Shown one piece after another: positions 13,698-16,623 of a DNA stretch of 64,000 nt; position 1 is the stretch's first letter, and each line of letters opens with the position of its first letter. A program made the translations under genes and the position numbers. The stretch is from Natrialba magadii ATCC 43099. GTDB taxonomy: Archaea; Halobacteriota; Halobacteria; Halobacteriales; Natrialbaceae. The notes beneath the pieces were generated by a model. That model was not told where the DNA came from, made no database searches, and saw nothing but the letters and a program-made list of their open reading frames with translations. The DNA is taken from assembly GCF_000025625.1 (NCBI RefSeq), contig NC_013922.1, positions 496,001-560,000 of the forward strand, written 5' to 3'.

Positions 13698-13849
13698 TGG
13701 TACTCTCTTTTTCGCGTTCCTCCTGACGGAACAATACGATACCGATCACGTCCTCCGTGCGTATCGTTTCGCTTTCCATCTGGCTCACACGATCACAGCA
13801 GCGTTCCTCACCAGGGTGACGGCGCGAAACGAGTTCGTACGCCCACCGC

Positions 13850-13867
13850 GCTAAAATATATTTTAGC
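13850..13867. promoter_or_regulatory. Perfect 18-bp palindrome overlapping the TATA region of the proteasome operon
   Basis: GCTAAAATATATTTTAGC is a perfect inverted repeat with no spacer. Its AT-rich core is the only good TATA box before the beta subunit gene. TATA-centre spacing predicts transcription starting near 13885, just at the GTG at 13884 and about 26 nt before the ATG at 13911. A dimeric repressor bound here would block TBP. The regulator is unknown. Confidence 0.6.
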
Positions 13868-13910
13868 TAACATACAACTCGCCGTGCCCCGTCGATTCGA
13901 ACGAGCACCA

Positions 13911-14663
13911 ATGGACCAGACGGACTCCACTGAATACATCGAAACCGGCACGACGACGGTTGGACTCGTCGGCGCGGACGGCGTCGTCCTCGCCGCGGAC
14001 ACACGCGCCAGCCTGGGTGGCCGCTTCGTCACGAATCGCACGGCACGGAAGGTCGTCCCGGTCGGCGACCACACCGCGCTCACCTTCGCCGGAAGCGTCG
14101 GCGAGGCCCAGACGTTCGTCCGCCAGTTACGCGCTGAACGCTCGCGCTACGAGCACGCGACCGACCGCACGCCGTCCGTCGAGACGACGGCCACGGTCGC
14201 CGGCGACCTCCTGCGCGGCGGGCCGTACCAGCACCTCGAACTCGTCCTCGGTGGCACGTTCCCCGAGCCAGCCGTCTACCAGGTCGGTCCCGGCGGCGGC
14301 GTGATGGACACACCCTACGCCGCGAGCGGAAGTGGGATGCAACTCGCCTACGGCCGACTCGAGGACGCCTACGAACCGGACCACTCCGTGGACACACTGC
14401 GAGGTCTCGCGACCACAGCCATCCGAAACGCGACCGAGCGCGACACCGCCAGCGGCGACGGGATGACGGTCGCGACGCTGACTGTCGATGAAGACGGAAG
14501 CGAAGACGAACACGACCACGAACGCAAATACAAATACGAACGCAAGTTCGAGCAATTCGTGCAGTTCGAGCAGTTCGAAAGCATCGCCGCCGCCGTCACC
14601 GCAACGACAAACGGGGCCGGCAATGAATCCGGCACCGACGCAGAATCGGGGGTGGCCTCGTAA
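13911..14663 (+). CDS. psmB: Proteasome beta subunit (20S), divergent copy
   Basis: Proteolytic subunit of the 20S proteasome. The 250-residue precursor has a 13-residue propeptide ending ...EYIETG before TTTVGLVG, so autocatalytic cleavage would expose Thr1. Catalytic features are present: Asp17 in AADTRAS, the lysine in ARKVV at mature position 34 (one residue later than the usual Lys33), and the SGSG loop (YAASGSGMQLAYG). The propeptide is much shorter than that of well-studied haloarchaeal PsmB. After VATLTVDEDG the tail diverges into a charged EHDHERKYKYERKFEQF stretch and an Ala/Thr-rich end. A GTG at 13884 would add nine residues. The stop is 2 bp from the alpha gene. Confidence 0.9.
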   Translation: MDQTDSTEYIETGTTTVGLVGADGVVLAADTRASLGGRFVTNRTARKVVPVGDHTALTFAGSVGEAQTFVRQLRAERSRYEHATDRTPSVETTATVAGDLLRGGPYQHLELVLGGTFPEPAVYQVGPGGGVMDTPYAASGSGMQLAYGRLEDAYEPDHSVDTLRGLATTAIRNATERDTASGDGMTVATLTVDEDGSEDEHDHERKYKYERKFEQFVQFEQFESIAAAVTATTNGAGNESGTDAESGVAS

Positions 14664-14665
14664 CG

Positions 14666-15508
14666 ATGGACTCGAGTACCACTCGCCAGCAGGCCTACGA
14701 TCGCGGACACACGATCTTCTCGCCCGACGGCCGGCTCTACCAGGTCGAGTACGCCCGCGAGGCGGTCGAACGCGGCTCACCGAGCGTTGGCGTCGTCACC
14801 GACACCGGTGTCGTTCTCGCCGCGCGAAAGCGCCTTCGCTCACCGCTACTCGAGTCCGAGTCGATCGAGAAAATTCACCGGGTCGACGACCACGTCGCGG
14901 TCGCCACCGCGGGGCATGCTGCTGATGCACGGCAGTTGGTCGAGATGGCTCGAAAGCGCTGTCAGCGCCACCGGCTCCGGTATGCTGAACCGATACCCAC
15001 AGAGACGCTCGCGGAGGCGATTGCGGACCACATTCAGGAACAGACACAGGCTGGTGGAACGCGGCCGTACGGCGCTGCGTTGCTCGTTGCGGGTGTCGAC
15101 GCTGGAAGGGGGAGGAAAAGGAAAAGGAGAAAGGAAAGCGAAAGCGGTAGCGGTAGTGGCAGCGGGAGTAACGCAGCAGGACAACACCCCCAGCCAGCGC
15201 TCTACGAGGTCGACCCCGGCGGCACACACTACGGCTGGCGTGCGACCGCGATCGGCAACGGCACGGCCGACATTAGATCGTTCCTGGAGGGGCAGCTGGC
15301 TGACAGCGGTGCCGAGTGCGAGGCAGGGGTGAGGAAGGACGGCCTCTCGCTCGCACTCGAGTCCCTCGCCGCCGGTACCTCCGAGACCGACACCGAACTC
15401 TCACCCGAGACAGTCGACGGCCTCGTGCTCACACCCGATACCGTGGCTGATCGGGCAGGCGTCGTCGACGGGGCTGAGGTTGCAGACGTACTCGGGGAAC
15501 TCGAGTAG
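14666..15508 (+). CDS. psmA: Proteasome alpha subunit (20S), divergent copy
   Basis: Forms the outer gate rings of the 20S proteasome. The 280-residue protein starts with the diagnostic YDRGHTIFSPDGRLYQVEYA and continues with GVVLAARKRLRSPLLESESIEKI, whose lysine pocket receives ATPase HbYX tails, and TRPYGAALLVAGVD. Between that strand and LYEVDPGGTHYGW, where classic alpha subunits have a short turn, there is an insertion of about 27 residues (KRKRRKE then a Gly-Ser run). It is coded by a purine-rich simple repeat at about 15108-15176. It follows the beta gene by 2 bp, so equal co-expression is likely. Haloarchaea usually carry psmA and psmB genes apart, so this looks like a second, specialised pair. 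Confidence 0.9.
   Translation: MDSSTTRQQAYDRGHTIFSPDGRLYQVEYAREAVERGSPSVGVVTDTGVVLAARKRLRSPLLESESIEKIHRVDDHVAVATAGHAADARQLVEMARKRCQRHRLRYAEPIPTETLAEAIADHIQEQTQAGGTRPYGAALLVAGVDAGRGRKRKRRKESESGSGSGSGSNAAGQHPQPALYEVDPGGTHYGWRATAIGNGTADIRSFLEGQLADSGAECEAGVRKDGLSLALESLAAGTSETDTELSPETVDGLVLTPDTVADRAGVVDGAEVADVLGELE
15108..15176 (+). repeat. Purine-rich simple-sequence tract inside the alpha subunit gene
   Basis: GGAGGAAAAGGAAAAGG-type purine runs pass into GGTAGCGGTAGTGGCAGC. They encode an in-frame basic then Gly/Ser insertion that is absent from classical proteasome alpha subunits. Base composition is unlike the flanking coding sequence. Confidence 0.7.
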
Positions 15509-15519
15509 CGCCGCGGTCG

Positions 15520-16623
15520 CTATTGGGCAGTCGTCTCGGCTGTCTCGCCCGTCCCGTGTGTCCCGCCTCTTTCGTCGGCCTCGGTCGTCTCCGTGGTCTC
15601 GGCGGCCCCGTCACCCTCGGCGGATTCGTTACCCTCGGTGGTCTCGGACACCGACGCTCGCTGCGTTTCGACCACGGTCAGTCGCTCGTCGACGTACAGC
15701 GCGAGTACGTCGTCCTCGAGTTCGACGACGACGCGGACGGCAAGCGGGTCTTCGGAGAGCACTGTCTCGGCCCACTCGTGGCCGATGTTCCAGAGGGGGC
15801 GCTCGCTAACAGCCTGCCCGTGTTCGTAGTAGAACGAGACGACGGCCGGATGCGAGAGCAGTGAGAGCGCGACGGGCGACCGGAGCGTTGTTCCACAGCA
15901 CGAGCAGGTAAACTCGGCCTGAAGGTGTGTGGCGTGTTCTGCAGGGAGTAAATCGTCTGTCGCCGGCGACGGCCGCACGAGTCTGGCGTCGACCTCGCCG
16001 CTGCAGGCCGGGCAGACGCCGTCACGAACGAGTGAGAGTCGGTGTCTGTGGTAGCGGTCGAAGGCCGTGGGGAACGATTCGCCGTGGGACTCGAGTCCAG
16101 CCGGCGGGAGATCGAGTCGGAGCAGGCGGCGTTCACAGTGCCCGCAGGCGACGGTAACCCGGTTGTCGCTGGCCCGAGCTGTGAGCGAGTCGTGCTCGCA
16201 GAACGGGCAGTCGTCCTCGAGTGGGACCGGCGGGTGATCGACGCGCTGGGTGTACGTGCCGGTCGCGATGGCGCGTGCAATTTGCTCGCCGGCGTAGGTG
16301 AGTTCGTAGCCGTCGGCACCGGGATCGGCGTCAGCGTCGGCTGTCGACGCATCGTTCACCTTCCGGAGATACGGCCCCACGAGCTCATCCAGATGGTAGG
16401 CGAACCCGGCTGACGTGTCGACCGCCGAGGCTTCGAAGAGCATCGAGAACGACGGCGTTGCTCGATCGGATTCGACAGCGCCGTCCGTCCACTCGAGCAT
16501 CGTCTCGAGTATCCCCATCCTGACCTCGTTGCCGAGCGCCTGGAAGGCGTCGCTTGGGTCGGAGACGCGGTCGCTCGGCTCGGGCGCGGCGACGGGCGGG
16601 TCCTCACCGTCCTCCGTGGACAT
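15520..16623 (-). CDS. Winged-helix (ArsR-like) regulator with zinc-binding C-terminal domain
   Basis: A 367-residue protein. An N-terminal winged helix begins DAFQALGNEVRMGILETMLEW, the usual ArsR-like haloarchaeal start, and continues FSMLFEASAVDTSAGFAYHLDELVGPYLRKV. The C-terminal domain contains CPFCEHDS...ACGHCERRL, CPACSGEV and CSCCGTTL, enough cysteines for two zinc sites. It is followed by EWAETVLSEDPLAVRVVVELEDD and a low-complexity Thr/Glu tail. This two-domain layout is common in haloarchaeal transcription regulators of unknown target. It is convergent with the proteasome pair, 11 bp from its stop, so a link to the palindrome at 13850 is possible but unproven. ATG at 16623 chosen over TTG at 16632. 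Confidence 0.82.
   Translation of the reverse strand: MSTEDGEDPPVAAPEPSDRVSDPSDAFQALGNEVRMGILETMLEWTDGAVESDRATPSFSMLFEASAVDTSAGFAYHLDELVGPYLRKVNDASTADADADPGADGYELTYAGEQIARAIATGTYTQRVDHPPVPLEDDCPFCEHDSLTARASDNRVTVACGHCERRLLRLDLPPAGLESHGESFPTAFDRYHRHRLSLVRDGVCPACSGEVDARLVRPSPATDDLLPAEHATHLQAEFTCSCCGTTLRSPVALSLLSHPAVVSFYYEHGQAVSERPLWNIGHEWAETVLSEDPLAVRVVVELEDDVLALYVDERLTVVETQRASVSETTEGNESAEGDGAAETTETTEADERGGTHGTGETAETTAQ

Follow-up and report, generated by a model that had tools for sequence, protein, structure and literature searches.

The proteasomes of archaea are commonly seen as housekeeping machines that come in a few subunit subtypes. In the vertebrate immunoproteasome, alternative catalytic subunits are made under control beside the constitutive ones, and in haloarchaea the regulators of the GvpE type act on an upstream activating site that is palindrome-like, lies beside the BRE/TATA and is read by one regulator. 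In Haloferax volcanii the 20S core draws on alpha1 (PsmA), alpha2 (PsmC) and a single beta (PsmB), and its subtypes depend on growth phase (PMC2910475). The genome paper of Natrialba magadii lists a proteasome operon, Nmag_0515-0514, together with the separate genes Nmag_3313 and Nmag_3351 and two PAN genes (PMC3403918), and the existence of the gene pair has thus been known since 2012. In the available excerpts of that paper the pair is listed only, without a promoter element, regulator, phylogeny or distribution, and our literature search found no further paper naming these Nmag loci.

Here we analysed this gene pair and its surroundings in N. magadii and its relatives. We propose, with a probability of roughly 0.68, that the locus is an accessory 20S proteasome cassette under regulation, and that a dedicated regulator, the product of a neighbouring gene referred to here as R, would bind a palindrome in front of the pair.

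The beta-alpha gene pair and its paralogues

The genome of N. magadii ATCC 43099 has 4.44 Mb in four contigs, and the window, i.e. the whole stretch of 64,000 nucleotides that was analysed, corresponds to C1:496001-560000 (C1 is 3,751,858 bp). The features discussed below are, in window positions:

13833..13844, + strand: GTTCGTACGCCC element just 5' of the palindrome, seen in upstream sequences; candidate second binding site
13850..13872, + strand: operator-like promoter element GCTAAAATATATTTTAGCTAACA, 23 bp, of which 13850-13867 is a perfect 18-bp palindrome
13873..13880, + strand: TATA-box-like position directly 3' of the 23-mer; T-rich in most genera, weaker here (TACAAC)
13911..14663, + strand: psmB2 (Nmag_0514), accessory 20S proteasome beta subunit (beta2), ATG 13911, stop 14661-14663, 250 aa; catalytic residues intact, 12-residue pre-T1 segment
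14666..15508, + strand: psmA2 (Nmag_0515), accessory 20S proteasome alpha subunit (alpha2), ATG 14666, stop 15506-15508, 280 aa; gate and ATPase-docking residues kept
15520..16623, - strand: R, predicted dedicated regulator with winged-helix DUF7347 and DUF7351, convergent with psmA2, 11 bp between the stop codons

The coordinates of the open reading frames bore out the earlier note, which had described a beta gene and, 2 bp behind it, an alpha gene. Its statements that the beta subunit has intact catalytic residues and a very short propeptide also held, as T1, D17, K33, S129, D166 and S169 were all found and the 12-residue segment before T1 is real. An in-frame GTG at 13884 is formally possible as an alternative, earlier beta start; there is little room for such a start because the promoter element ends at 13872. 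Both genes are called proteasome subunits by Pfam and NCBIfam, with scores under the NCBIfam equivalog cut-offs for the standard archaeal alpha and beta. PF00227 was matched with E values of 1.2e-41 for beta and 5.4e-45 for alpha, which also matches PF10584; the beta subunit reached 173.8 bits, below the equivalog cut-off of 224, and the alpha subunit passed the subfamily model NF003075 (253.9, cut-off 219) and failed the equivalog TIGR03633.

As the earlier note had suggested, we looked for other psmA and psmB genes in the genome and built trees of both subunits. The whole-genome PF00227 search found two further subunit genes only, both solitary, an alpha at C1:3447077 and a beta at C1:3480996, the remaining matches being the beta and two pieces of the alpha in the window, and the pair fell outside the ordinary haloarchaeal single copies in both trees. 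Each of these checks could have refuted the earlier note, and both came out for it. Of the 61 relatives surveyed, 21 carry a beta-then-alpha pair and 10 an alpha-then-beta pair. The alpha tree has the beta-then-alpha group as one side of a branch (99/97), and in the beta tree 20 of its 21 rows fall together (91/81), with a Natrialbaceae core at 100/99; the standard copies are elsewhere in both trees. Beta2 and alpha2 represent deep, fast-evolving paralogue lineages. The gap between them is -4 to +2 nt in 21/21 loci, where stop and start codons touch or overlap. The dN/dS ratios (0.08-0.35 for beta2, 0.16-0.29 for alpha2 and 0.13-0.17 for R) indicate that all three genes are under purifying selection; beta2 evolves several times faster than the standard beta (beta1), a rate that also fits relaxed use. 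The alpha-then-beta pairs of other genomes were considered as the same system and rejected, as they belong to a different lineage in the trees. These operons (L056, L057, L058, L062, L065, L068, L069, L074, L076 and L078) are closer to the standard genes, and some of them coexist with lone standard copies. Outside the cassette, very divergent beta-like proteins on extreme branches were seen at L059 (genome G020) and L107 (genome G049).

The six catalytic residues named above are invariant in 47/47 beta2 orthologues, and beta2 is predicted to be an active threonine protease with a cleavable pre-T1 segment. At position 45 of the S1 pocket, the beta2 of the Natrialbaceae core has F where standard beta has M or L, which is suggestive of a changed S1 pocket and an altered specificity. 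In all 21 alpha2 sequences the residues for gating and ATPase docking are present (the YDR gate, P17, E25, K66 and G80), and alpha2 also keeps the AGH motif. In the AlphaFold2 (AF2) model, alpha2 adopts the usual fold and the insert forms a disordered loop at residues 146-175. This insert of about 27 residues and the charged tail of beta were described in the earlier note as unusual additions; both are real, but they are features of the genus and do not define the pair. The tail is present in 4/7 Natrialba and varies in length, and the insert lies at the same site in 7/7 Natrialba with a hypervariable sequence that is basic only in some. Being restricted to Natrialba and variable in length and composition, tail and insert were ruled out as functional hallmarks.

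Promoter element and predicted regulator gene

The 23-bp element at 13850-13872 consists of the palindrome GCTAAAATATATTTTAGC plus TAACA. This element and R, neither of which the earlier note mentions, make up the strongest part of the case. The element or a close variant of it lies upstream of all 21 pairs and is degenerate only in G032, and in the N. magadii genome it has exactly one site at up to three mismatches. Among 100 relatives searched at up to two mismatches it was found in 30, always once, with 0 matches for a reverse-pattern control; among 391 genomes of the class (haloarchaea) at up to three mismatches it was found in 63, from 32 of 86 genera, with one match for the control, and each genome had one site, apart from palindromic double reads of one site. 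With one genome taken per genus (33 genera), the mean relative entropy is 2.0 bits per position over the 23 positions, compared with 0.16 upstream and 0.31 downstream. The GTTCGTACGCCC element is common to many, not all, Natrialbaceae cassettes and is not seen in other families. An exact 20-mer search of IMG/VR found no virus carrying the element. Membership of the element in a wider regulon was considered and rejected, since this genome has no second site at up to three mismatches and the one site away from a cassette, in G227, is no more than the control would lead one to expect. The latter (L208, at C2:63219) is a copy with three mismatches located away from proteasome genes, before a 41-aa frame, and is probably a chance match.

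The ATG of beta follows the 23-mer by 28-38 nt in 57 of 58 loci (median 31), and from this spacing the T-rich stretch after the 23-mer is likely the TATA box. With the usual TATA spacing of 25-27 bp, transcripts would be leaderless or nearly so. We favour an upstream activating site as the role of the palindrome because it would lie directly upstream of the likely TATA box, with its centre near -43; the alternative is a repressor operator that would overlap or block the BRE.

The gene R is convergent with alpha2 and occupies the same place 3' of it in 18/18 loci compared; no other neighbour is so general. Its product matches PF24038 (E 2e-20) and PF24042 (E 3e-50), and the invariant residues include eight cysteines arranged as four CxxC pairs. 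The AF2 model of R (pLDDT 82.5) has a helix-helix-helix-helix-strand-strand-helix order at residues 23-120, the layout of a winged helix, with pLDDT there mostly at 75-95. A Foldseek search with the full-length model gave no significant match, a profile search of R against the PDB gave weak matches only, and our literature search found no paper on the DUF7347/DUF7351 family. Given the predicted winged helix, on which DNA binding rests, R would be a DNA-binding regulator from a large paralogous family.

Among the 100 relatives, an R orthologue was present in 33 (E ≤ 1.4e-57), always beside the pair; leaving aside second fragments of these genes, the nearest paralogues had E values no better than about 2e-45. 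These 33 genomes are the 30 that bear the element, two with three mismatches in it (G015 and G016) and G032, whose element is degenerate. In a quick tree, the 57 linked R proteins group into a single clade (SH-aLRT 100), to the exclusion of 20 paralogues. Family f12 retains only the winged helix of R, with a perfect element in G120 and G257 and three mismatches in that of G399 (loci L213, L214 and L215); this truncation points to the winged helix as the part of R that would be relevant for the element. Co-occurrence, joint loss, single-site specificity and the retention of this domain together suggest a link between R and the palindrome.

Distribution of the cassette and alternative explanations

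The full cassette of element, beta2, alpha2 and R was found within the fetched stretch in 53 of the 61 loci with the element or a degenerate form, in seven families. The survey of downstream genes covers all but about four of the 63 element-bearing genomes of the class, and these genomes are related, not independent, so that the co-occurrence counts overstate the number of events. In all motif loci examined beta2 lies directly downstream, except in two, one a remnant and the other in G227, where an intact pair and R are on another contig with a degenerate element. R is located farther downstream in G305 and G210, at about 7 and 13.6 kb. The locus of G066 (L221) is a cassette remnant, with the element and fragments from the N-terminal part of beta, the C-terminal part of alpha and the C-terminal part of R. 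In four genomes of family f5 (G259, G289, G148 and G221; L216, L217, L219 and L220), the element, beta2 and R are kept and alpha2 is absent from the cassette. Among the relatives, at least seven genera contain members with and without the cassette (g5, g6, g7, g8, g10, g14 and g19), and in these R and the element agree. The distances of R, beta2 and alpha2 show correlations of 0.83-0.85 with one another, with a maximum of 0.21 under permutation, as is expected from joint inheritance. On the sequence evidence the element, beta2, alpha2 and R are gained and lost together. Two individual loci are of note. In G385 (L238) the beta2 frame seems broken early, possibly by a frameshift or an assembly error, with a perfect element and R present. 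In Halomontanus rarus the cassette (L254) is on a 402-kb plasmid (NZ_CP119800.1), where both subunits are annotated as alpha and R as a regulator of the ArsR family.

According to the preferred reading of a regulated accessory cassette, one promoter with a dedicated palindromic operator would drive the beta2-alpha2 operon for a second 20S core, a dimer of R would bind the palindrome via DUF7347, and the second core would be produced only under some condition. As alpha2 keeps the gate and the pocket for the ATPase tail, the PAN or Cdc48 ATPases already in the cell should be able to work with the particle. What is said here of the binding of R, the sign of regulation, the condition, the composition of the particle and its altered specificity is inferred. 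A link to a particular ATPase was considered and rejected, as nearly every genome examined has two PAN-type genes regardless of the cassette, and none lies inside it.

The composition of the particle is where a different reading has most weight, namely that beta2, with or without alpha2, exchanges into standard cores to give mixed subtypes, like the alpha1/alpha2 cores of H. volcanii or the immunoproteasome, and makes no particle of its own; we put this at somewhat short of even odds. The four f5 genomes without alpha2 have other alphas that fall on the standard or psmC-like side of the alpha tree, which argues that beta2 can work with another alpha and that the cassette does not have to supply a whole particle. 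The earlier note had considered a separate 20S particle made in a fixed 1:1 ratio, for which these four genomes are a difficulty. Subtypes of the H. volcanii core differ in subunit composition and are modulated by growth phase (PMC2910475), a precedent in the same direction. In nearly all other genomes, however, beta2 and alpha2 are translationally coupled, and they diverge in step (Mantel r 0.845 compared with at most 0.13 when permuted), which suggests mutual contact, although shared history alone is also expected to produce a correlation. Thus the tight coupling of beta2 and alpha2 argues for a separate core, and the loss of alpha2 in some f5 genomes for exchange into standard cores.

R itself could be a mere syntenic neighbour that controls something else, with the palindrome bound by a general factor, and indeed R is convergent rather than divergent, its own promoter lacks the element and the class holds many DUF7347/DUF7351 paralogues. 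We think this unlikely, as R follows the cassette across seven families and is lost with it, its winged-helix half alone survives in f12, and for a general factor one would expect further sites in each genome. The element might also be no more than a strong core promoter (BRE/TATA) that no specific regulator reads: it is A+T-rich, it lies at promoter distance and BRE/TATA sequences can be conserved. An 18-bp palindrome with nearly every position fixed, however, goes far beyond the requirements of a core promoter, and in none of the genomes examined does this string stand at a second promoter, which makes this explanation improbable. The patchy distribution, the G066 remnant, the truncated beta2 frame in G385 and the long branches could also indicate a redundant duplicate on its way out, evolving fast and with little function. 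This we regard as improbable in view of the invariant catalytic residues, the dN/dS values well below 1 and a promoter element that is near letter-for-letter the same across 33 genera.

Comparison with other proteasomes and regulators

If the reading of a regulated accessory cassette is true, conditional use of the proteasome in archaea could be tested directly on a repeatedly lost, perhaps mobile, cassette with its own single-target regulator, through one deletion and one operator, and the large haloarchaeal DUF7347/DUF7351 family would have its first predicted target. A broader idea, which we hold tentatively and at clearly less than even odds, is that the cassette is an archaeal counterpart of the inducible proteasome, i.e. 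a second 20S core with altered cleavage that would be switched on by a single-target sensor-regulator, made of the winged helix and an eight-cysteine domain that is likely a zinc ribbon or redox-sensing, and would be spread and lost as a unit among haloarchaea.

The cassette resembles the vertebrate immunoproteasome in its likely changed S1 pocket and in the predicted control of alternative catalytic subunits beside constitutive ones, and differs from it in co-encoding an alpha partner and in having no homologous regulator. With the GvpE systems it shares a palindrome beside a TATA-like position, predicted to be read by one regulator, whereas R belongs to another family (DUF7347-DUF7351). We also considered whether the alpha2 of the cassette is the second alpha of the Haloferax type and rejected this, as the alphas of f5 that resemble psmC lie with the standard genes in the tree, apart from alpha2 (the tree was built without H. 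volcanii PsmC itself). H. volcanii duplicates alpha only, whereas this cassette duplicates both beta and alpha, and the excerpts available of the work on the H. volcanii 20S subtypes describe no linked regulator or operator (PMC2910475), both of which are predicted for the cassette.
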